Shown here in pieces: positions 5,017-31,063 of a stretch of DNA of 64,000 nucleotides. A model generated the notes under the pieces. That model did not search any database. It was not told the DNA's origin and worked only from the letters and a program-made list of their open reading frames with translations. Origin of the DNA: an uncultured Rhodospirillaceae bacterium (GTDB lineage: Bacteria; Pseudomonadota; Alphaproteobacteria; UBA8366). The first letter of the stretch is position 1; each line of letters begins with the position of its first letter. A program made the position numbers and the translations under genes. The stretch is from positions 1 to 64,000 of the forward strand of contig CAJWLM010000009.1 of NCBI GenBank assembly GCA_913043025.1. Direction: 5' to 3'.

Positions 5017-6048
5017 ATGAGAAAGTTTTTGATGGCGGCTGCCTTAGTGGCATTTGCCAGTAACACTATCATTGGTGCAGAGCCAGCGCATGCCGCTGAT
5101 GGCCCAACACTCACTGCAGTTAAAAAACGTGGTGAATTAATATGCGGTGTCCATCAGGGTCGCTATGGCTTTGCTATTGCTGATAAAAAGGGCAAGTGGA
5201 AAGGGCTTGATGTTGATGTCTGCAAAGCGGTAGCAGCAGCGGTTCTTGGTGATGGTAATAAGGTAAAATATATTCCACTTGGAAGCGTGCAACGCTTCCC
5301 TGCCCTGCAATCGGGGCAAGTTGACATGCTTTCACGCACTACAACTATCACGCTTACCCGGGACTCAGCTCTCGGTCTTAACTTTGGCCCCCCAACGTTT
5401 TACACCGGAACGGGTTTTATGGTTCGCAAGAAACTGGGCATTACAAAGGTTGACCAACTGGGTGGAGCAGCAATTTGCGTCTTTCCAGGCAGCACAACAG
5501 AGAAGAATATTGCCGCATTATTCAAGTCAAAAGGAATGAAGATGACACCCGTTGTTATCGAGAATTCAAAAGAACTTGTCAGTGCATACATGGCAGGTCG
5601 TTGCGATGTACTTGCAATGGATCAGGCAGGTCTTCCGGGTCACCAACAGTACGATGCTAAAACCCCCTCCGATCATGTGATTCTGGATGGAGTTTATTCC
5701 AAAGAACCACTAGCCGCTGGCGTACGAGCCGATGATGACCAGTGGTTTGATATTACAAAATGGGTTGTGCATGCGCTATTCAACGCAGAAGAATGGGGAA
5801 TTACCCAGGCGAACGTTGATAAAATGAAGGCGTCAAAAGATCCGAATGTCACGCGACTGCTTGGTGCCACTGGTAATCTTGGCAAAAAGATAGGACTTGG
5901 TAAATCTTGGGCGTATGACGCAATCAAAGCGGTCGGCAACTATGGTGAAGTATACGATAGAAACTGGGGCCCGCCGTTGAACCTTGCGCGAGGGGTTAAT
6001 GAACTTTGGACAAAAGGGGGCCTGATGTACGGCTTCCCGATGAAGTAA
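5017..6048 (+). CDS. aapJ: General L-amino acid ABC transporter substrate-binding protein
   Basis: Signal peptide MRKFLMAAALVAFASNTIIGAEPAHA; PTLTAVKKRGELICGVHQGRYGFAIADKKGKWKGLDVDVCKAVAAAVLGD; GGGAG start context. Confidence 0.9.
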   Translation: MRKFLMAAALVAFASNTIIGAEPAHAADGPTLTAVKKRGELICGVHQGRYGFAIADKKGKWKGLDVDVCKAVAAAVLGDGNKVKYIPLGSVQRFPALQSGQVDMLSRTTTITLTRDSALGLNFGPPTFYTGTGFMVRKKLGITKVDQLGGAAICVFPGSTTEKNIAALFKSKGMKMTPVVIENSKELVSAYMAGRCDVLAMDQAGLPGHQQYDAKTPSDHVILDGVYSKEPLAAGVRADDDQWFDITKWVVHALFNAEEWGITQANVDKMKASKDPNVTRLLGATGNLGKKIGLGKSWAYDAIKAVGNYGEVYDRNWGPPLNLARGVNELWTKGGLMYGFPMK

Positions 6049-8423: not shown

Positions 8424-9200
8424 TTGGAAAACTTGAAAAGTTCTGCCTCAAGTCAAAAGCATGAAAGACTTGTCATAGAGTTAACAGGTGTTAACAAGTG
8501 GTACGGCGACTTCCAAGCACTTGTTGACATTAACATGTCGGTGCGACGCAGTGAGCGGGTCGTGGTTTGCGGTCCCTCTGGGTCCGGAAAATCAACAATG
8601 ATACGCTGTATTAATAGATTAGAAGTGCATCAGCGTGGAAGAATAGTTGTCGACGGCATTGAACTTACAGACAATCTTAAGAACATTGAAGCCATTCGGA
8701 GCGAAGTGGGTATGGTTTTTCAATCATTTAATTTGTTCCCCCATATGCCCGTAATCGACAACCTTACCTTAGCACCTATGCTAGTACGGAAAATGCCAAA
8801 AAAAGATGCCGAAGAATTGGCTATGCAATATCTTGAGCGTGTTCAAATACCGGAACAAGCATTCAAATACCCTGGCCAGCTTTCCGGAGGTCAACAGCAA
8901 AGAGTCGCTATTGCGAGATCTCTTTGTATGCAGCCAAAAATCATGCTTTTTGATGAGCCAACATCAGCGCTTGACCCAGAAATGATTAAAGAGGTTCTTG
9001 ACGTTATGATCGAGTTAGCTGAAGACGGCATGACAATGATAGTAGTAACTCATGAGATGGGATTTGCAAAAACTGTCGCTGATACTATGGTCTTCATGGA
9101 CGCAGGGGAGATAGTAGAGTCAGCTGACCCGAGTAAGTTTTTTACTGCGCCAGATAATCCTCGGACCAAGCTTTTTTTAAGTCAAATCTTAACTCACTGA
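8424..9200 (+). CDS. aapP: Amino acid ABC transporter ATP-binding protein
   Basis: Walker [10 protein letters not shown], signature [13 protein letters not shown], Walker [16 protein letters not shown]. Confidence 0.92.
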
Positions 9201-19670: not shown

Positions 19671-19721
19671 TTTCCCCCATTGCTCCATAGATTGAATGGC
19701 GTTGAATTATTAAGTGGTTTT

Positions 19722-20165
19722 ATGAAAAATCAAAAAAGTAACTGGTTGTTTGGAAACGTATCAGCAGCCAAAATGGCATCATATTTTACCATAGGTTACC
19801 CGTTCGCAGTTCCACTAGCACTTACTGCATTTTGGAGCTATCCATTGTACTCCGGGTTTTATGCGAGTCTTTTCACAAATATTTCCATACATCTCCTATG
19901 CTGTATCTTTGCATTTGCTATAGTGACCTTTCCGCTTTCTTATTTCAAAAATAAGTGGCGTCAAAACATTATGATGTGGTTTTTAGTTGTGCCTTTACAG
20001 TTAGCAGGGCCGTTCCTATTTTTTCTTCTTTTTTATGATCAGATCAATCCATTGTCGCAGCCAGATGAGCCTTTGGATTTTCTAATAATATTGGGGGCAT
20101 CATCCCATATGTATGCTTTGGTCATTTTTTTTATTTCACATAAAAGTCCACAGTCAAATAGCTGA
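19722..20165 (+). CDS. Small integral membrane protein of unknown function
   Basis: MKNQKSNWLFGNVSAAKMASYFTIGYPFAVPLALTAFWSYPLYSGFYASLF..., about four hydrophobic segments. Confidence 0.5.
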   Translation: MKNQKSNWLFGNVSAAKMASYFTIGYPFAVPLALTAFWSYPLYSGFYASLFTNISIHLLCCIFAFAIVTFPLSYFKNKWRQNIMMWFLVVPLQLAGPFLFFLLFYDQINPLSQPDEPLDFLIILGASSHMYALVIFFISHKSPQSNS

Positions 20166-20235
20166 CGGCATGCAACGTTCCTGTGATGAATTTATGCGGA
20201 CACCATATCAACAAGAGCTATAAATAGGATTTACG

Positions 20236-20823
20236 ATGCAGGTTTTTTTTAGTTGGCAACGATCAGTGTCCGGATATTTTATTGCCGATGGAGATGGGAA
20301 CCCAATAACAGACAATTTTCGAATGTCTATAAGTGAATTCTCTGACCTCGACCGAGCCTTATGGCTATTACCAAAGGGTCAAAAACAAGTGACCGTAAGC
20401 CCTTTTGCTCCCAAAGATAACGACCCGTGTCGTGAATTGGCTCTTACGATAGAAAAGCAAGACTGGCTTGCTGCAATCCTAAAGTTTGCAAACGCCAACG
20501 GTTTGGCGAGTGAGTTTAAAGTCGGGCGTGGTGAACCAGTGAACACATTGGTTCGATTAGCAACTGACTTAGCTCAAATGTTGAATTGGTTTGATGAAGT
20601 AAAAGAGTCATCAAATAGTACAGAGCGGAAAAAATGCCTCGACAAAATTTGCAAACTTTATAATCGAGTAAATTGGGCGGACACACGTGCATATCTCTAC
20701 GCCGGAGAGGATTTCTCTCCGATATTGACAGTTATGCCCACCTCGCTCGGTCATGCTCTCTGGCTTGAATTCGGCGATATGCTTCAGTCGCATAAAACTG
20801 GCGCATCGCAGATTGTTCGATAG
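20236..20823 (+). CDS. Hypothetical protein
   Basis: 195-aa ORF with no recognised motif. Confidence 0.45.
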   Translation: MQVFFSWQRSVSGYFIADGDGNPITDNFRMSISEFSDLDRALWLLPKGQKQVTVSPFAPKDNDPCRELALTIEKQDWLAAILKFANANGLASEFKVGRGEPVNTLVRLATDLAQMLNWFDEVKESSNSTERKKCLDKICKLYNRVNWADTRAYLYAGEDFSPILTVMPTSLGHALWLEFGDMLQSHKTGASQIVR

Positions 20824-21059
20824 CGGATTTTTTAACAATGGAATTTTTATTTCGTTTCCCGCGCGCTAAAATAATTGACATTCAAGGCATTTACAAAAAT
20901 TAGAAAGAACTACCTTGGGGGATCAACAAAAATGATTTCTTGTACCGTGGCTTGGTTTTTGTAAAATATTTTAAACGTATTACAACACCGAAACTAAATA
21001 TACCAAGGAAGTCCTCAATCACCTTTTTTGGCAAAACACAGTTGCATCTTAATTTGCAC

Positions 21060-21968
21060 ATGCAAAGCCTGGCATGGGTGAAAGTTTGGCAACAAGCACC
21101 ATTGCTACAATTTAAGATAATAGTCTTGGTTATATTGACGTTACCTCTGTTGTCTTGCCAGACATATTACAATATAGCGCCAACACCAATGCCCGCTCAC
21201 GGCGCAACACGGGATAGAGTTAATGAATTAACTTTATTAACCTACAACATAAGGACGGGTATCGGCATCGCTTCACCAGGAACAAGCCCCTACGACACCC
21301 AAACATGGAAAAAATATCTGCCGCTTATAGCAGAGGCTATTCGTTCTACTGGTGCAGATGTGGTCGCAATCCAGGAGTTACTCGAAGGCCAAGAAAAAGA
21401 ATTAGGTAAACTTCTTGACATGAATTACGCCTATGCTCGTCACGGCGTCGTTGGTCCAGGTGACTGGTGGGGCGTCGGGATATTGTCGAAATTTCCGATT
21501 ACTTCTGCGTTTCGTGATGTTCTTAGCACCGGCAGTGGCAACACTAGGTCCAACGCAGTAGTCACTTTGGAGATCAACGGTCAATCACACGTCTTTATAA
21601 GCATCCACAAAGATAAGGATCTTGGTGACGGGGTCTCAATTGAGCGTACAGCCGACACTGCTAATCAATTCACGGGCGCAGTATCGGTTATGGGTGATTT
21701 CAACCTTTGGCCGGACGATCCAATAATGCGGAAGATGCCGCTTAAGCTTGTTGATAGCGCCGACCAAGTTAACACGCCCGGCAGTAGATTTTTAAAACGG
21801 GTCGGAACATTAAACGGCTCTCACCATCCCGATCATGGTGGACGAATTGATGGAATTTGGATTGATCCAAAATTTTACCAAGTCATAGATACTTATTTAA
21901 TGAATAAAAAGTATTGGGATGCATCGGACCACTATGGTGTTGTCACTCGAGTGCTGCTCAAAAAATAA
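21060..21968 (+). CDS. Endonuclease/exonuclease/phosphatase-family lipoprotein
   Basis: Lipobox-like LLSCQT; LTLLTYNIRTG, DVVAIQELLEG, VMGDFNLWPDDP, SDHYGVVTRV: EEP motifs; start ambiguous (20940 or 21060). Confidence 0.75.
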   Translation: MQSLAWVKVWQQAPLLQFKIIVLVILTLPLLSCQTYYNIAPTPMPAHGATRDRVNELTLLTYNIRTGIGIASPGTSPYDTQTWKKYLPLIAEAIRSTGADVVAIQELLEGQEKELGKLLDMNYAYARHGVVGPGDWWGVGILSKFPITSAFRDVLSTGSGNTRSNAVVTLEINGQSHVFISIHKDKDLGDGVSIERTADTANQFTGAVSVMGDFNLWPDDPIMRKMPLKLVDSADQVNTPGSRFLKRVGTLNGSHHPDHGGRIDGIWIDPKFYQVIDTYLMNKKYWDASDHYGVVTRVLLKK

Positions 21969-22151
21969 AATACAGGAACTACTCTGTAAAAATCGCATTG
22001 ACGTGACCATGTCCCTGCAATAGCAACTGTTAAAACTATGATCAGGGTTAGTAAAGAAATTAGCTACGAATGTTTCTAATTTACCATTTTAGTTCTATTT
22101 TCGGCACTAAAAAGTACGTTACCGTGCACTAACATTTAGTTATGAGACAAA

Positions 22152-22907
22152 ATGGATCGGAATAAAGAACTTGATGGGAAAGTGGCGATTGTGACCGGCA
22201 GTGCTCGCAATATCGGCAGAGCAGTAGCAGAAGAACTCGCTCGTGCCGGAGCAGCAGTAACAATCAACGCAGTAGACGATCAAAAAGCATGCAAGGAGGT
22301 AGCCCAGGATATAGTTAACTCTGGCGGGAGGGCTATACCAGTCATGGCCGACATTACCGAACAGGCAGATGTTGATAATTTAATATATCAGACTACAAAA
22401 TCTTTTGGCGGGGTGGACATCTTGATTCTCAATGCGGCGATCCGCATTGATACTCCGTTTTTGGAACGAAGTTTTAATGACTGGCGACGTGCCATGGCAG
22501 TTGCAGTGGATGGTAGTTTTCGTCTCTCGACCGCATGTGTTCCCTCAATGATTGATCGCGGCGGCGGCGCAATAGTTGGGATACATGGTGTGCAGGCTTA
22601 CACAGCTGCCTATGGCAAGAATCCAGCATCTAAAGACGCGCAAGCCGGAATGCTACGCGGTATGGCGCGTGACCTAGGAAAATATAACATTACTTGTAAT
22701 ATCGCCGTCGTGGGTTCTTTTGACACTGATAGAATTGGTAGTTCCGGTGAATTGGACACGCCCGACCTATCCGATAGTATTCCGCTTAGGCGACGCGGTG
22801 TGCCGCAAGATATGGCAAACTGTATTCGCTTTTTAGTTGGCCCATATGCGACATACGTAAGTGGTCAAAGCATCCATTTAAACGGTGCTTATTTCATGCC
22901 TCACTAA
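22152..22907 (+). CDS. SDR-family oxidoreductase
   Basis: GKVAIVTGSARNIGRAVAEELARAGA; LILNAAIR; PSMIDRGGGAIVGIHGVQAYTAAYGKNPASK. Confidence 0.88.
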   Translation: MDRNKELDGKVAIVTGSARNIGRAVAEELARAGAAVTINAVDDQKACKEVAQDIVNSGGRAIPVMADITEQADVDNLIYQTTKSFGGVDILILNAAIRIDTPFLERSFNDWRRAMAVAVDGSFRLSTACVPSMIDRGGGAIVGIHGVQAYTAAYGKNPASKDAQAGMLRGMARDLGKYNITCNIAVVGSFDTDRIGSSGELDTPDLSDSIPLRRRGVPQDMANCIRFLVGPYATYVSGQSIHLNGAYFMPH

Positions 22908-22967
22908 TCTTGCATCGTCAGCCAGCAGGCTTTTCGCTGTTCTTTAGCTGCAGGAAAGCGAAAAAAA

Positions 22968-22992
22968 TGGTGACCCCAGCGGGATTTGAACC
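22968..22992 (-). repeat. att-like duplication: 3' 25 nt (T-arm, acceptor strand, CCA) of tRNA-Glu
   Basis: TGGTGACCCCAGCGGGATTTGAACC, identical to 30988..31012 inside the intact tRNA-Glu. Confidence 0.9.
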
Positions 22993-23115
22993 GATGCTTA
23001 TGAGTTCAAGCTGATACCACCGAGACGCAATTATACGAACTTCTTACTAGAAATCCGGTCTTTTTTTATCCTCAAACCACAACCATAACAAGTTAGTACC
23101 ATCTAGTTTGCGGTA

Positions 23116-23139
23116 TTTTGAGGGCACTTTTGAGGGCAC
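23116..23139. repeat. Two perfect tandem 12-bp repeats TTTTGAGGGCAC, possible recombinase arm sites
   Basis: TTTTGAGGGCACTTTTGAGGGCAC; degenerate same-orientation counterpart at 30905-30928. Confidence 0.6.
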
Positions 23140-23448
23140 ATTTACGCCCTAGCCCCAGACGCTTAGATTACAGAAACAAAAAGCTTTTCAGTATTTCTAG
23201 AAATAGATCCATAGCTAGAGCCCTCTTGGCTTATCTTAATTTTATTTCAGAAATAACATTGCCACTGCTATCCCTACTTTTAGCAAATAGAACTTGATTG
23301 ATTGAAGCTTTGTACTTCTCCTCACCTTCTAACTCACTCATATTTGCCCTCCCCTACAAGAATCGACCGGCATCTGATAATATCACACGTACCAGACACA
23401 ACGAAAGAATCTGGTGGCAGATATTTAGAAAGAAATGAAAACAGCAAT

Positions 23449-26109
23449 ATGAAAAACTTTTTTGCGGTAATCCTACTGGCTACTTGTATCCTCTTCCAAG
23501 GCAACGGGGTTGGTGCCAGCGACAGCGATTGGAATAAAGGCCAAAACGCATACGATAATGAAGACTTTAGCACTGCTCTAAGTATATGGGAGTCCCTAGC
23601 CGCACAAGGAAATCTAAGGGCCCAATATTCATTGGGTGGGATGTACGAATACGGAAAAGGTGTTCCGAAGAACATTGCGACAGCTCTGAAGTGGTACAGA
23701 CTTGCTGCAGAACAGGGGGATGACATTGCCCAGAACAGGCTCGGTGAGATGTACGAATACGGAGAAGGCGTTCCAAAGAACATTGCGACAGCTCTGAAGT
23801 GGTTCAGACTTGCTGCTAAACAGGGACATCCTGATGCTCAGGTCACTCTGGGTTTGATGTACGAAAACGGAGAAGGTGTTCCGAAGAACAACAAGACCGC
23901 AGTGAAGTGGTTCAGACTTGCCGCTAAACAGGGGGATGCTGATGCTCAGGTTTTATTGGGTACAATGTACCGCCTTGGAAAGGGTGTTCCGAAGAACGAC
24001 AAGACTGCAGTGAAGTGGTTCAGACTTGCTGCAAAAAAGGGGTCTAAGAATGGCCAGTTCTCAATGGGTTATATGTACGAACAGGGAGACGGTGTTCCCC
24101 AAAACCTGAAAACTGCGGTTAAGTTGTACACACTTGCTGCTGAACAGGGGCTTGATGTAGCCGAGTACGCATTGGCGCAGATGTACGAAGGCGGACAAGG
24201 TGTTCCCCAAAACCTGAAAACTGCGATGAAGTGGTTCAAACGTGCAGCCGACCAGAATTATTCTCAGGCTAAGGAGAAAATTAATACTCTATACCTTGAG
24301 GGAAAGACCGCTTTTGAAAATGGTGATTACGCGGCCGCTCTAAGCAAATGGATTATTTTAGGCACCAACAATAACGCCAAAAGCGCATATGGTCTCGGCA
24401 TAATGTACGAACAAGGGAAAGGAGTTCCGCAAAACAATAAGACTGCAGCAAAATGGTACAAATCTGCTGCCGAACAAGGGCATGACAAGGCCCAGAGAAA
24501 ATTGGGTTTATTTTACTACTCAGGAAAGGGTGTTCCAAAAGATTTAAAGGTTTCTGCAAAATGGTACACGCTTGCTGCTAAACAGGGAGATCCCGTCGCT
24601 CAATTATTCCTAGGTGAATATTACAAAAAGGGAAAAGGAGTTCCAAAGAACCAAAAAATTGCGATGAAATGGCTTAAGCTATCTGCTGAACAAGGAAATA
24701 AATACGCGCAACAAAGCCTCGGGCAGCTGATCCTCAATGAAACAGGGGAAAAACAAGCATTAAAATGGTTCCGGCTTGCTGCTGAACAAGGCCTCAACCT
24801 TTCTCAAATGCTGATGGGGGTAATGTATACACAGGGGAAGGTAGTTCCAAAGGATTACATAACTGCGCTTAAATGGCACAAGCTAGCCGCCAAAGATGGA
24901 TACGCACCTTCGGAATACCACCTGGGTTTGATGTATGCAGACGGTAACGGTGTTGCCCAGAACCATAAAACCGCAATGAAGTGGTTCAAACGTGCTGCCG
25001 CAAAAGGTCTTGATAATGCTCAATTTCAAGCTGCCCGTTTGTACCGAATGGGGAAAGGTGTTCCGCAGAATTATAAAAAGGCAATCAAGTGGTATAAGCT
25101 TGCAGCCGCACAAGGGTACGGATTAGCCCAGGCTCATTTAGGAGCGATGTACGCTGCAGGGCATGGCATGCCACAAAACCTCATATACGCATACATGTGG
25201 ATCAATATTGCTGCGGGTACTACAGGGAAAAAAGGATTAGTGGATTTTCGGGAGCAAGTACTCAAAAAGCTGTCACCTAAGCAAATAGAACAAGCCCAGA
25301 AACTCTCGGATAATTGTGTAAGAAAAAAATATAAGAATTGCGAAGACCCGAAATTCGCAAAGAAAGGTGGTGGTAAAACAGCAACTAAACCATCTGCAAA
25401 ACAAAAAAAGAAAGCAGATAAAGATATCGTTTCTGCATCATCTGGTACTGGATTTGCTGTATCAGGCAAGGGGCATGTAGTCACGAATTATCATGTAATT
25501 GAGGGCTGTCGAAGAGTGATGATACATCATAATGGGAAAATGATTGCAGCCAAGGTTTTAACCTTCGACCCTCAAAACGATTTGGCTTTGCTTAAAGGAA
25601 ACTTTAAACCTCTTTCGGTTTTCCCTTTAAGCAATAATAGACCGCAGTTACTGCAGGAGATATTTGTTGCAGGGTATCCATTTGGAAAGAAAATAAGCAC
25701 ATCAGTTAAAGTCACAAAAGGTATCGTAAGTTCACTTACAGGCATGGGGAATAATTCCTCTAATATTCAAATCGATGCGGCGCTACAGCCAGGAAATAGT
25801 GGTGGCCCCATACTGAATGATAAAGGGAATGTTGTAGGAGTTGCCGTCGCAAAATTAGACGTCAAAAAAGTTTTAAAGGCTTATGGCACCATACCCGAAA
25901 ATACAAATTTTGGCGTAAAAACAAGCGTTCTTCGAAATGTTGTCGATAGTTTAGGAATATCCCTACCCCGACCAAACAGACTCTCAATGTCGAAATCTAC
26001 GCTAGGTAAAGTAATTTCCGAAGGGACTTACTACCTTTCATGCTGGATGACGATGGCCAAAATTCAGCAGATGAAATCCAGAAAAGTCGTATTCCAAAAC
26101 CTTGAGTAA
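23449..26109 (+). CDS. Secreted Sel1-repeat protein fused to a trypsin-like/HtrA-type serine protease domain
   Basis: Signal peptide MKNFFAVILLATCILFQGNGVGAS; ~14 Sel1 repeats (AQ..LG.MY..G.GVPKN..TA.KW..LAA.QG); protease motifs VVTNYHVIEG, NDLALL, LQPGNSGGPI. Confidence 0.9.
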   Translation: MKNFFAVILLATCILFQGNGVGASDSDWNKGQNAYDNEDFSTALSIWESLAAQGNLRAQYSLGGMYEYGKGVPKNIATALKWYRLAAEQGDDIAQNRLGEMYEYGEGVPKNIATALKWFRLAAKQGHPDAQVTLGLMYENGEGVPKNNKTAVKWFRLAAKQGDADAQVLLGTMYRLGKGVPKNDKTAVKWFRLAAKKGSKNGQFSMGYMYEQGDGVPQNLKTAVKLYTLAAEQGLDVAEYALAQMYEGGQGVPQNLKTAMKWFKRAADQNYSQAKEKINTLYLEGKTAFENGDYAAALSKWIILGTNNNAKSAYGLGIMYEQGKGVPQNNKTAAKWYKSAAEQGHDKAQRKLGLFYYSGKGVPKDLKVSAKWYTLAAKQGDPVAQLFLGEYYKKGKGVPKNQKIAMKWLKLSAEQGNKYAQQSLGQLILNETGEKQALKWFRLAAEQGLNLSQMLMGVMYTQGKVVPKDYITALKWHKLAAKDGYAPSEYHLGLMYADGNGVAQNHKTAMKWFKRAAAKGLDNAQFQAARLYRMGKGVPQNYKKAIKWYKLAAAQGYGLAQAHLGAMYAAGHGMPQNLIYAYMWINIAAGTTGKKGLVDFREQVLKKLSPKQIEQAQKLSDNCVRKKYKNCEDPKFAKKGGGKTATKPSAKQKKKADKDIVSASSGTGFAVSGKGHVVTNYHVIEGCRRVMIHHNGKMIAAKVLTFDPQNDLALLKGNFKPLSVFPLSNNRPQLLQEIFVAGYPFGKKISTSVKVTKGIVSSLTGMGNNSSNIQIDAALQPGNSGGPILNDKGNVVGVAVAKLDVKKVLKAYGTIPENTNFGVKTSVLRNVVDSLGISLPRPNRLSMSKSTLGKVISEGTYYLSCWMTMAKIQQMKSRKVVFQNLE

Positions 26110-26114
26110 TTTTT

Positions 26115-26765
26115 ATGAAAAGCCTGACCACAACACTCTGCCTAACGATTGCCGTGCTTCTCAAAGGTGCAGCCGCGAGTGGGAGCAGTGATTTGGGAGA
26201 ATGGAGAAGTAAAGGTAATATTATTTCTCCAGAGTGTTTTCCTTACGAATTGCCGTCTAATGATAACTTTGAGGCAATTGCAGAACATCACGGGTTCAAA
26301 TACACAGAAGATTTTTCTGACGATCCTGGAAAATATTTTGGCAGGGAAATCAAAAACTTTGATGGCGTTCCTGAACCATGGACAGGTGGAAAGTACAAAC
26401 TCCATGCGATAAGAGATTTAAAAACATGCCCCGACCGGAAGCAACAATTACACTATAAGAACGGGTTTGTTATTTTTCGGCTCAATGAAGGCGGGCATCA
26501 AATAAAGTACCGAAAAGGAAAAGATATACCCCTCAAAATTTGTAATAAGCTCGCACCTAATTTGAACGCTAATTGCATAAGATCCTCAATTTTTCTTATA
26601 GGCTGGTGGGAAGGAGGCAGTCGGGGGTTTTATTGGAACACCTATATATATGGTCTCTTCCAGACCGACGGTAATAAAGAATATATTGTACCACTCAAGG
26701 GTTGGTATGGACGTTCAGAAGATGAAGCACTTAAGTTTTACGAGAAAATCGGAGCGGCAAAATGA
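26115..26765 (+). CDS. Secreted hypothetical protein of the Sel1 cluster
   Basis: MKSLTTTLCLTIAVLLKGAAAS leader resembling the neighbouring Sel1 proteins; mature part has no Sel1 repeats. Confidence 0.65.
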   Translation: MKSLTTTLCLTIAVLLKGAAASGSSDLGEWRSKGNIISPECFPYELPSNDNFEAIAEHHGFKYTEDFSDDPGKYFGREIKNFDGVPEPWTGGKYKLHAIRDLKTCPDRKQQLHYKNGFVIFRLNEGGHQIKYRKGKDIPLKICNKLAPNLNANCIRSSIFLIGWWEGGSRGFYWNTYIYGLFQTDGNKEYIVPLKGWYGRSEDEALKFYEKIGAAK

Positions 26766-27352
26766 AAAACCTGACCGCAACACTCTGTCTAGCGATTGCC
26801 ATGCTTCTTGGAAGTGTGAGGATAGGTGTGAGTGATGATGGTCTAACCGCATACCAGAGTGGTGACTACGCAACTGCTTTGCGTATATGGAAACCTCTTG
26901 CGAAACAGGGGTATGCTGATGCCCAGGCCCTTCTGGGTTTATTGTATCACGAAGGACAAGGTGTTACGGAGAACTATAAGACTGCGGTGAAGTGGTATAG
27001 ACTTGCTGCGAAACAGGGGTATGCCTTTGCCCAGTCCAAACTGGGTGATATGTACCGAGACGGACAAGGTGTTCCACAGGATTATAAGACTGCGGTGAAA
27101 TGGTACAGACTTGCTGCGGAACAGGGGATTGCCCTTGCCCAGTCAAATCTGGCTGTGATGTATGCCTTGGGTAAGGGAGTGCTAAAGGACTATGTCTATG
27201 CCCATATGTGGGATAATCTTGGCGCCTTTAATGGGAATAAGGATGGTGGTAGGATACGAGATTTAGTTGTTAAACAAATGACCCCCGCCGACATCTCCAA
27301 AGCACAGAAACTTGCCCGTGAATGTGTCCGTAAGAAATACAAAGGGTGTTGA
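26762..27352 (+). CDS. Secreted Sel1-repeat protein
   Basis: MKNLTATLCLAIAMLLGSV leader; SGDYATALRIWKPLAKQGYADAQALLGLLYHEGQGVTENYKTAVKWYRLAAKQG repeats; overlaps the upstream stop codon. Confidence 0.88.
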   Translation: MKNLTATLCLAIAMLLGSVRIGVSDDGLTAYQSGDYATALRIWKPLAKQGYADAQALLGLLYHEGQGVTENYKTAVKWYRLAAKQGYAFAQSKLGDMYRDGQGVPQDYKTAVKWYRLAAEQGIALAQSNLAVMYALGKGVLKDYVYAHMWDNLGAFNGNKDGGRIRDLVVKQMTPADISKAQKLARECVRKKYKGC

Positions 27353-27422
27353 GTTGGGAATCCTTAAGTCCTCTCATCCTTCTCTCTTACTCAAAAATCT
27401 AAAATCCACTAAACTCATTCCT

Positions 27423-28130
27423 ATGAAAAAACTGACCGCCACCATCTGCCTGACCCTCGCCATCCTTCTTGGAAGTGTGGGGATGAGTGCGAGTGCTGAT
27501 TTACGAAAGGGTGCTGTCGCATACAAGAGTGGTGATTACGCAACTGCTCTGCGTGAATGGACCCCACTTGCCGAACAGGGGGATGCCGGTGCCCAGTCCT
27601 TTCTGGGTATGATGTACGCCAAAGGAGAAGGTGTTTCAAAGAACTATAAGACTGCGGTGAAGTGGTACAGACTTGCTGCCGAACAGGGACACGCAAGGTC
27701 CCAATTCATTCTGGGTTTGATGTACGAAGAGGGGAAAGGTGTTCCACAGGACTATAAGACTGCGGTGAAGTGGTACAAACTTGCTGCTGAACAGGGGAAT
27801 GCCGATGCCCAGTCCAAACTGGGTTATATGTACGACACAGGAAAAGGTGTTCCAAAAAAACCTAAGACTGCGTTGAAGTGGTGGAAACTTGCTGCCGAAC
27901 AGGGGAATGCCACTGCCCAGACCAATATGGGTGCGATGTACGGATTGGGAAAAGGGGTCATACAGGATTGGGTCTATGCCCATATGTGGGGAAACCTTGG
28001 TGCCTCTAATGGTAGTGAGGAAGGTGCCAAAATGCGAGACCTCGCTGCTAAACAAATGACCCCATCTCAACTTGAAACCGCACAGAAACTTGCCCGTGAA
28101 TGTGTCCGTAAAAACTATAAAGGGTGTTGA
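27423..28130 (+). CDS. Secreted Sel1-repeat protein
   Basis: MKKLTATICLTLAILLGSVGMSAS leader; SGDYATALREWTPLAEQGDAGAQSFLGMMYAKGEGVSKNYKTAVKWYRLAAEQG repeats. Confidence 0.9.
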   Translation: MKKLTATICLTLAILLGSVGMSASADLRKGAVAYKSGDYATALREWTPLAEQGDAGAQSFLGMMYAKGEGVSKNYKTAVKWYRLAAEQGHARSQFILGLMYEEGKGVPQDYKTAVKWYKLAAEQGNADAQSKLGYMYDTGKGVPKKPKTALKWWKLAAEQGNATAQTNMGAMYGLGKGVIQDWVYAHMWGNLGASNGSEEGAKMRDLAAKQMTPSQLETAQKLARECVRKNYKGC

Positions 28131-28233
28131 GAGACACTGCCGCAAAAAACTGGACAAAAAATAATTGGATTGTTTATTACGAAAGTACGGTTGAGTTGAT
28201 CCGGTGTTTGCACTTCCAGACTATTCACAAATA

Positions 28234-29205
28234 CTACTTCCTCAATGCTTTGTAGATACCCTTACCAAAGGGTGACAGATACGGATCTATCTCTGACCAC
28301 TTCAACGGTAATTCCTGAATTCCTTCCGCAAAAGAGGCCACTTCGTAAACTTGAAACATCAGAGTTGTGCCCTCCTTTTTAAATCGCCATCTATCTGGTT
28401 TCTGCATCACCTGGGATATCTTATTACCCGCCCTCTTTATCCATTCAGGAGCAAACTTTTTGCTGGCTTTGTTCTGTATCAATTTTTCAAATTCAGCATA
28501 TTTGCTGGAACCTTTTTCAACGAAAAAATCCGAACCAGTTGCTTTTCTGTTTTCGTCCAATCGGTAATGGCGATATGTCGTTTGATAAATGCCGTGCGCC
28601 GCGCCGTGTAACGTTATTGCTTCATCAATTTTTAGCGTAGCGAGATTATCGAGAGCTATTTCTATAGTCAGTGACATTTCTTTATTAGCCTTGGGATCAA
28701 CCACATCAAATTCGCTCTTTAGCTCCTCTATAATTTTACTCAGCCTGGCCAAGGGAATACTGTTCATGTGATTAGTTTTGCGATACGGCATCTCCCATAA
28801 AAGGTACGATCGCCCATAAAACCCCCAAGCTGAATATGTCCCGCCGGTGCCTCGCAACCAATCTTCAATCTCTGCTTTTGAATATGGAACAATCTGCTCT
28901 TGCTCATAGAAAACGCTTAAAAAATTCCCATGGCTTATGGGCTGCCGTTTGTAAAAAGCTATACGTGCTTCCAAGGCGTCTTTTTCACAGGTTTTTTTAC
29001 AGTTTGCCTGCCTCCACATATGATGCTGGTACAGAATTCGATTGTGGATTGCTCTTGGTAACTTCGCATAAAGCTGATTAAACGCTTCCGTAAGTTTGGG
29101 GTACGCTTTCCAGTAGTCCCGATCAACATCAGCCGATGCCGGTAGAGGGAGGGTAACTGAAAATATCAAGCCTAAAAGTACCAAGATAGAGTTTCTCAGC
29201 TGCAT
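28234..29205 (-). CDS. Secreted protein with DUF3298 (RsiV-like)-type C-terminus
   Basis: Signal peptide MQLRNSILVLLGLIFSVTLPLPASA; C-terminal MFQVYEVASFAEGIQELPLKWSEIDPYLSPFG. Confidence 0.55.
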   Translation of the reverse strand: MQLRNSILVLLGLIFSVTLPLPASADVDRDYWKAYPKLTEAFNQLYAKLPRAIHNRILYQHHMWRQANCKKTCEKDALEARIAFYKRQPISHGNFLSVFYEQEQIVPYSKAEIEDWLRGTGGTYSAWGFYGRSYLLWEMPYRKTNHMNSIPLARLSKIIEELKSEFDVVDPKANKEMSLTIEIALDNLATLKIDEAITLHGAAHGIYQTTYRHYRLDENRKATGSDFFVEKGSSKYAEFEKLIQNKASKKFAPEWIKRAGNKISQVMQKPDRWRFKKEGTTLMFQVYEVASFAEGIQELPLKWSEIDPYLSPFGKGIYKALRK

Positions 29206-29282
29206 ATGGGTTCCTCCGGTGTATTCGTTTCACAACTGCCATCATAGAATGTTAAGTACCCTTAATTCAGTCACGTCACTTA

Positions 29283-29687
29283 TTAATCTTTGGGGCCAAA
29301 GAAAAGTCTGAGGATCAACAAAAACCAACAAAAAAAGCACCCAGAGATACCCATGTAACCAGCAGGTTGCCATCCGACTGGAAACATAGAAGATTCCTCT
29401 ACAATGACTTGGTATAAAAACAATAGAGGACTCCCAGCAACTATCCACATCACAGGCGATGCAAGATATTTTTTTCCGATCTCAACAAACAGCCCAGCGG
29501 CACCAATACCAACTCCGCAAGCGATAATGTGAAAAATTAAACCAATGAAAGATTGGGTAAAAAAACCATCGTAACTAGGGTAGGCCCAGTAGGCCGCTAG
29601 CCCAATCGGGACACCTAGAATGTAAATAATCATTAACCATTCCATAAAACCCAAGTCGTTTTCCCCATATTCTCCCCAAAGTTTCAT
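29283..29687 (-). CDS. Small membrane protein
   Basis: MKLWGEYGENDLGFMEWLMIIYILGVPIGLAAYWAYPSYDGFFTQSFIGLIFHIIACG...; GGGAGGGGG ribosome-binding site before this ATG. Confidence 0.6.
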   Translation of the reverse strand: MKLWGEYGENDLGFMEWLMIIYILGVPIGLAAYWAYPSYDGFFTQSFIGLIFHIIACGVGIGAAGLFVEIGKKYLASPVMWIVAGSPLLFLYQVIVEESSMFPVGWQPAGYMGISGCFFCWFLLILRLFFGPKD

Positions 29688-29706
29688 CTCGCCCCCTCCC
29701 ACGGGA

Positions 29707-29967
29707 TCATCTACCAAATTTAAATCGGCTCCCCTCGATAGACACCCACGGCCAACAACCGGTGTTCCGCCTACTACTTTCGTCATAGAAGCACTGCTTA
29801 ACATTGTTTCCCTTTTTTACGAAAAAAGTTGAATCGTTCCCACTGATGACTTCAAGCCCACCACCAAAGGCCTGAGCTTGTTTTACCGGCTGCGTATCAA
29901 TAGCAATGAACACCAATGCAACCGCGATTACAGTCAATATGCCTTTGGTGAATAGATCAATTTTCAT
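29707..29967 (-). CDS. Small secreted/anchored hypothetical protein
   Basis: MKIDLFTKGILTVIAVALVFIAIDTQPVKQAQAFGGG leader, 86 aa. Confidence 0.5.
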   Translation of the reverse strand: MKIDLFTKGILTVIAVALVFIAIDTQPVKQAQAFGGGLEVISGNDSTFFVKKGNNVKQCFYDESSRRNTGCWPWVSIEGSRFKFGR

Positions 29968-29993
29968 TAGTAACCCCCATCAGTTTATGAGGG

Positions 29994-30161
29994 CTAAGAC
30001 TTAGCCCCCTCTTGAAGCACCGACTGTTCGAACTTCCGCAATGCCTTCCACACGTCGTTGTGATCGAACCCGTCGGGTACAGTTAAAGTTATCTTGGTCA
30101 GATCAGTTGAAACTGTACTGACTGTTACGTCATCATATTCCCGTTCGTATTTCTTAGCCAT
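29994..30161 (-). CDS. Small hypothetical protein (55 aa)
   Basis: Direct translation MAKKYEREYDDVTVSTVSTDLTKITLTVPDGFDHNDVWKALRKFEQSVLQEGAKS*; below the cutoff of the ORF track. Confidence 0.45.
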   Translation of the reverse strand: MAKKYEREYDDVTVSTVSTDLTKITLTVPDGFDHNDVWKALRKFEQSVLQEGAKS

Positions 30162-30173
30162 AGTGGCCTCCTA

Positions 30174-30644
30174 TCATCGCCTAGCTTCACCGCCCTTTGG
30201 CTCGTCGCTCAAAGGGAAGTCATCCGTCGGGGTGGCAGTAGGCGTTTCCTGCCAGCCGACTACAAACGGGCCACTGCCCGAAATTTCAGTTTTACTCTGC
30301 ACTGCGTAGCGTTTGTCTAATCGTGTCTGAGCCGCCATGATCTGGTGGCTGCGGTCGCGTGTAATAGTCGCCATCGCGTTTATATGCTTGGGGTCATAGT
30401 TTGTAGGATTATCAAGTAACCGCTGTTGGTCGTCATAGTTCATGTCAAAGCAGGTCTGCAGTCCCCTCACCCATGCTGCGTGAATCCTTCCCTCCAACTC
30501 TGCCACATGCTCGCGCCATAGCTGCACGGCCCGTAACGTTGGCATATCAGCTCCCCGACAGATATTTGTAAGGGTAGCGCCACAGGATAACTTTGAGATT
30601 ATTGAGGCAATAATCTTTTCTGTTTTCTTAACTGGCTTCTTCAT
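30174..30644 (-). CDS. Phage terminase small subunit-like protein
   Basis: IASIISKLSCGATLTNICRGADMPTLRAVQLWREHVAELEGRIHAAWVRGLQTCFDMNYDDQQRLLDNP...HINAMATITRDRSHQIMAAQTRLDKRYAVQSKTEISG, Sf6-type pattern; GGAGG before the ATG. Confidence 0.6.
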   Translation of the reverse strand: MKKPVKKTEKIIASIISKLSCGATLTNICRGADMPTLRAVQLWREHVAELEGRIHAAWVRGLQTCFDMNYDDQQRLLDNPTNYDPKHINAMATITRDRSHQIMAAQTRLDKRYAVQSKTEISGSGPFVVGWQETPTATPTDDFPLSDEPKGGEARR

Positions 30645-30805
30645 GAACTTCGTCCTCCGAATAGTGATCGTATAAGCTGGGCAACAACTCGGACAATGTT
30701 TTGTCGCTTGGTTGTTACTGCGTTGTCGTGTAATTGCCTGCAATCTGAGCGAAAGCACCAGTAGATTACATTGACTTCAGCAGAATTTTTGCAATCTTCA
30801 CTCAT
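30641..30805 (-). CDS. Small hypothetical protein (54 aa), translationally coupled to the terminase-like gene
   Basis: MSEDCKNSAEVNVIYWCFRSDCRQLHDNAVTTKRQNIVRVVAQLIRSLFGGRSS*; GGAGG upstream; ATGA overlap with the next start. Confidence 0.4.
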   Translation of the reverse strand: MSEDCKNSAEVNVIYWCFRSDCRQLHDNAVTTKRQNIVRVVAQLIRSLFGGRSS

Positions 30806-30987
30806 AAAAACCTCCTCACGATTGATTTGACTATGGGACCAGATGTACAGAGCAACGCATTGGGGATGCTCCCCGTCCGGAAATATCCCCTGCCCCTAAG
30901 GGACTATTTGAGGGTATTTTTAAGGGCATAACTAGATTTGCGCGTACAAATAAAACGCCTAAAGTACCGGATTTCTGGGAAAAAGAG

Positions 30988-31063
30988 TGGTGACCCCAGC
31001 GGGATTTGAACCCGCGTTGCCGGCGTGAAAGGCCGGTGTCCTAGGCCTCTAGACGATGGGGTC
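30988..31063 (-). tRNA. tRNA-Glu (anticodon TTC), CCA encoded
   Basis: GACCCCATCGTCTAGAGGCCTAGGACACCGGCCTTTCACGCCGGCAACGCGGGTTCAAATCCCGCTGGGGTCACCA folds as a cloverleaf. Confidence 0.95.

Follow-up and report, generated by a model that had tools for sequence, protein, structure and literature searches.

The tRNA-Glu locus and its direct repeat

In the draft genome of an uncultured alphaproteobacterium (G000; 3.08 Mb, 97%-complete assembly), about 8 kb of DNA lies between a short piece of the tRNA-Glu gene and the intact gene. How did this DNA come to lie there, and is it still able to move? The window analyzed here is a stretch of 64,000 nucleotides that is part of contig C9 of this genome. 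Among named sequences, it is most similar to marine Rhodospirillaceae MAGs. TGGTGACCCCAGCGGGATTTGAACC is found in it as an exact 25-mer on the plus strand at 22968-22992 and 30988-31012, with 0 mismatches between the two copies, while it is expected by chance 0.00 times (100 shuffles). No further copies are found at up to 3 or at up to 7 mismatches. The right copy spans the 3' end of tRNA-Glu, reaching from the encoded CCA to within the T-arm. The left copy is not followed by a longer decayed tRNA body past its 25 bp, and the left flank of the island ends with ..GCGAAAAAAA. The initial annotation had reported this repeat and read it as the attL and attR of an island. Both the repeat and the layout are real. 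The island proper is 22993-30987; the previously given interval, 22968-31063, includes the repeats and the tRNA 5' end. A direct repeat of the tRNA 3' end that flanks an insert next to an intact tRNA gene is the mark of a tRNA-targeted tyrosine-recombinase island, and this arrangement is found here. The GC content (44.7% in the island, 44.7 and 46.6% in the flanks) offers no contrast. The features of the two ends are as follows (G002 is a congener described below).

22968..22992 (no strand): attL, displaced 25-bp tRNA-Glu 3' end; exact repeat of 30988-31012; G002 left-flank homology ends about 17 bp outside
23118..23139 (+): putative left arm-type pair, two copies of TTGAGGGCAC 12 bp apart
23143..23212 (no strand): left-end sequence also present in the G002 island (L033 13605-13674), where 70 bp match at 88.6%
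30907..30929 (+): putative right arm-type pair in eroded form (TTGAGGGTAT, TTAAGGGCAT); 19 of 22 positions agree with the left pair
30988..31063 (-): intact tRNA-Glu(TTC), Rfam RF00005, 64.6 bits; its 3' 25 bp (30988-31012) are attR

The left arm pair is perfect, and the right arm repeats have two mismatches each. Against the 19/22 match of 30908-30929 to the left pair, the best among 59 random pairs of stretches is 16/22. With up to 2 mismatches allowed, GAGGGCACTTTNGAGGGCAC occurs once in the 3.08-Mb genome. The arm motif is also present near attR and near the second att of G002, and it has 0 exact matches in IMG/VR. These paired repeats look like arm-type sites of a lost integrase.

Genes of the island

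Accessory genes and a phage-like gene had been claimed for the interval. Genes for Sel1-repeat and DUF3298 proteins and for small proteins of secreted or membrane-bound appearance are indeed found there, together with a terminase small subunit-like gene (terS).

23302..26109 (+): Sel1-repeat protein of 935 aa that ends in a trypsin-like serine protease domain (Pfam Sel1 1.9e-132, Trypsin_2 1.2e-28)
26115..26765 (+): protein of 216 aa whose start resembles a signal peptide; no match to a family (Pfam, PHROG)
26762..27352 (+): 196-aa Sel1-repeat protein, C-terminus ..RECVRKKYKGC (family match and translation)
27312..28130 (+): 272-aa Sel1-repeat protein; a shorter form beginning with the ATG at about 27424 would also fit
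28234..29205 (-): 323-aa DUF3298-domain protein, signal-peptide-like start (Pfam 1.5e-8)
29283..29804 (-): protein of 173 aa, probably in the membrane; a weakly similar paralogue lies at 19797-19985
29707..29967 (-): small protein of 86 aa; no match to a family (Pfam, PHROG)
29997..30161 (-): 55-aa ORF adjoining terS; 65% identical homologues beside terS relics in G005 and G009
30174..30644 (-): terS, encoding an Sf6-type protein like terminase small subunits; 156 aa when started at ATG, and the open frame reaches a GTG at 30758

Functions of the cargo are given by family matches only. By eye, the translation of the 935-aa protein has the H/D/S motifs TNYHVIE, DPQNDLALL, and GNSGGP, and what follows an inner Met (about 23449) resembles a signal peptide. 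The Sel1-repeat proteins of the island match PHROG 8741, and the 272-aa protein has a 73% identical C-terminus in the tRNA-Glu island of G002. A specific tie between Sel1 genes and tRNA att sites was considered and rejected, because such Sel1 genes are found at many places without tRNA repeats. Just outside the island, at 19680-20165, there is a membrane protein that is weakly similar (about 28%) to the 173-aa protein and conserved in G002.

The ORF of terS (30174-30758, minus strand) matches Pfam Sf6_terminase at 3.1e-7, above the cut-off, and PHROG 1482 (terminase small subunit) at 9.4e-9. Among 43 genomes of the order searched, relatives of it exist in only two others, G005 and G009, both of genus g4 in the same family. 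Two of these relatives are relics near tRNA-Gly, each adjoined by a homologous 55-aa partner ORF. Another (G009 C18) is at the end of its contig and is preceded by two small ORFs; of these, one matches PHROG 3742 (1.6e-8), a PHROG with no function assigned. A search of IMG/VR, phage records, and PDB gave no match to terS, and the Pfam and PHROG scan of the 8-kb island gave no other recognizable phage gene (e.g., primase, capsid, or large terminase). A 110-aa protein, encoded directly inward of the second att in G002, has relatives beside the tRNA-Gly terS relics as well. The relatives of terS, of the 55-aa ORF, and of the 110-aa protein suggest that small elements, perhaps derived from phages, form a common pool. 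Together with the Sel1 proteins, these genes are common to different tRNA sites.

The locus in related genomes

G002 has the same flanks as the window: an SDR gene on the left, and tRNA-Glu, a flgE-like gene, and recJ on the right. On the left, an 86% alignment covers 19758-22951, and the homology breaks off beside attL at about 22951. On the right, it picks up again at 30945 (88%), some 40 bp to the inside of attR. Between these flanks, G002 has an insert of 13.7 kb with aconitase-like, cytochrome c, carbamoyltransferase, and sulfatase genes and one Sel1 gene. The 23-31 kb block is therefore not a syntenic core: in G002, which is the only informative relative, different DNA has taken its place between the same flanks. 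A comparison with relatives had also been proposed as a way to find an empty site. It revealed the variable content of G002, but no clean empty site of about 25 bp was found. The comparison covered three species of the genus, of which G001 is without the locus. The tRNA-Glu/flgE end is present in G003 and G007, where 10.6 and 11.3 kb show no repeat and the left flank differs.

Two more tRNA-Glu fragments exist in tandem in G002, one at L033 13086 (about 23 bp) and the other at 5390 (20 bp, 2 mismatches). All the fragments in the window and in G002 are anchored at the CCA end, are 20-25 bp long, and have unrelated sequence beyond. Among nine other tRNA genes in seven stretches, taken as a control, only the tRNA-Gly of G005 has such a 3'-end repeat. 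The variable content and the tandem fragments in G002 make the tRNA-Glu site look like a site of tandem accretion.

Integrase: absence and remnants

The interval had been described as having no integrase ORF, and a search of contig C9 for Phage_integrase (PF00589) agrees, giving no match in the island or elsewhere on the contig. A genome search for an orphan integrase, also proposed earlier, found four tyrosine recombinases in G000 and no others. None of them is at the tRNA-Glu locus or near any tRNA, and none is similar to the tRNA-Glu remnant (below) at E <= 1e-6. The XerC/XerD-type genes (C12 and C5) and a 102-aa fragment (C34) were rejected as candidates since they are not near a tRNA and are unlike the remnant. 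A 413-aa phage-type integrase (C48) was rejected too; it reads as another type, and its 7.7-kb contig has no tRNA. By eye, the 102-aa fragment (L066, 8080-8388) resembles the C-terminus of an integron integrase. On the short contig C48 (L067, 13-6891), a 1493-aa subtilisin-like protein with repeated domains adjoins the phage-type integrase, and this region may be another island.

Remnants of an integrase do exist at the same tRNA in relatives. In G002 (contig C12, 111582-111839), a tyrosine-recombinase C-terminus (RFHDLRHIHASALLQQGKASQTVAGRLGHSSANITHQIYGHLMPN.., PF00589 2.2e-9) is found about 73 bp from tRNA-Glu; it is broken, with two stops in its upstream part. In G009, which represents a second genus, a contig begins with a 64% identical recombinase C-terminus beside tRNA-Glu. 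In G016, which belongs to a different family of the order, an integrase runs for 257 aa from the contig end and stops 69 bp from tRNA-Glu. In IMG/VR, 11 loci are related to the integrase remnant at 42-57% identity, and one of these adjoins tRNA genes.

The window island has no integrase of its own, and only C-terminal remnants are found in the relatives; for these reasons it is classified as a relic rather than an autonomous island. Since the window island itself holds no trace of an integrase, we infer the loss from the relatives. Note that G002 and the window share only the island ends and Sel1 genes, so that the claim of the same integrase rests on about 70 bp on the left, about 40 bp on the right, and the arm motifs.

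Origin and present state of the island

Taken together, 22993-30987 is most likely a decayed island resembling the cis-mobilizable elements (CIMEs), which integrated at the 3' end of tRNA-Glu, lost its integrase, and belongs to an accretion hotspot. The element would have entered the tRNA-Glu 3' end by site-specific integration with a tyrosine recombinase. The incoming attP would have brought a copy of the last ~25 bp of the tRNA, which is why the gene stayed intact, and the original end would have been displaced to 22968-22992. The lost integrase gene was probably at the tRNA end, with its 3' end near the tRNA and beside the putative arm-type GAGGGCAC sites, as in the remnants of G002 and G009. 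It may have been deleted in this lineage or replaced by other sequence including the terS-like gene. What is left would be a CIME-like relic with att sites and cargo but no genes for integration or transfer. Several related islands appear to have inserted and decayed at the same tRNA-Glu hotspot.

The left fragment might instead be a leftover of a duplication or rearrangement of tRNA-Glu. Partial tRNA copies can arise by duplication, but the common CCA anchor and length of the fragments in the window and G002, the unrelated sequence beyond them, the island-end motifs common to both, and the different content between the same flanks leave this reading hardly any credit. A remnant of a prophage or phage satellite in tRNA-Glu is a possible, less probable reading, with terS as the only phage gene left and the genes for Sel1 and protease proteins as cargo or later arrivals. 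The Sf6-type terS, its homologues confined to genus g4 (two being relics near tRNA-Gly and one following the small ORF that matches PHROG 3742), and the PHROG 8741 matches of the Sel1 proteins are consistent with it, whereas an 8-kb segment lacking primase, capsid, large terminase, and any other recognizable phage gene, and a terS without match in IMG/VR or phage records, speak against it. Such an origin is compatible with the decayed CIME-like island and is not its opposite. Going further, terS and the 55-aa ORF with arm sites and an att core could represent a family of minimal integrase-free elements that use the integrases of others, are packaged by the large terminase of a helper phage, and carry Sel1 cargo; this is very improbable.

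The initial annotation left the island as either defective or mobilized in trans. If still mobile, it would be excised and integrated by the integrase of a related tRNA-Glu element acting on the att cores and arm sites, which would be all the mobility parts it has. The identical att cores, the perfect left arm pair, the related C-termini of integrases that G002 and G009 have at this tRNA, and the presence of one phage-type integrase in G000 would suit this. However, the C48 integrase reads as another type and its contig has no tRNA. Continued mobility is unlikely. The defective state is better supported, because the right arm is eroded, no recombinase of the tRNA-Glu type was detected in the 97%-complete assembly, and the relatives have only integrase C-termini; mobilization in trans is conceivable but unsupported. 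The decayed CIME-like island is probably fixed now.

Comparison with known elements

PICI-like phage satellites, which are small islands in the chromosome, can include a gene for a small terminase subunit. By homology, the window island shares this gene with them. Unlike them, it has no integrase, regulator, primase, or packaging-interference module, and no family match to a PICI-like integrase, regulator, or replication module is found among the island ORFs scanned.

CIMEs and tandem accretion have been reviewed for ICEs and IMEs (PMC5704250). Like CIMEs, the window island keeps attL and attR while genes for integration and transfer are absent, and the G002 elements are in tandem at the same tRNA. 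No conjugation or mobilization gene is found in the interval by the Pfam and PHROG scan. Unlike the case of CIMEs, no conjugative or mobilizable parent is identified here, and the only mobility-type gene left is the phage-like terS. Another similar layout is that of the Dehalococcoides ssrA islands, which are variable, lie in tandem behind one RNA gene, are bounded by ~20-bp 3'-end repeats, and in many cases have no integration module (PMC3146451). Those islands use a serine recombinase (DsiB) and tmRNA (PMC3146451), whereas tyrosine-recombinase remnants and tRNA-Glu are found here. The locus is a new example of an already known kind of island and implies no new mechanism. It puts on record a hotspot of integration at tRNA-Glu in an uncultured family of marine alphaproteobacteria, and relatives show stages of integrase decay.

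Observations at other tRNA genes

In G005 (contig C11, L103), a partial 3'-end repeat of tRNA-Gly(CCC), with 1 mismatch in 20, is found at 8830 and 10321 around a terS relic. Ahead of this tRNA-Gly, CCCCAAGAGCCGCAGAAAACC resembles the sequence ahead of tRNA-Glu in the same genus. In G002 (contig C14, L071, 5322-8911), tRNA-Asp is adjoined by a degraded recombinase-like C-terminus, and the next genes encode a DNA methyltransferase, a Vsr-like endonuclease, and a 440-aa protein. This region is likely a restriction-modification island at a second tRNA.
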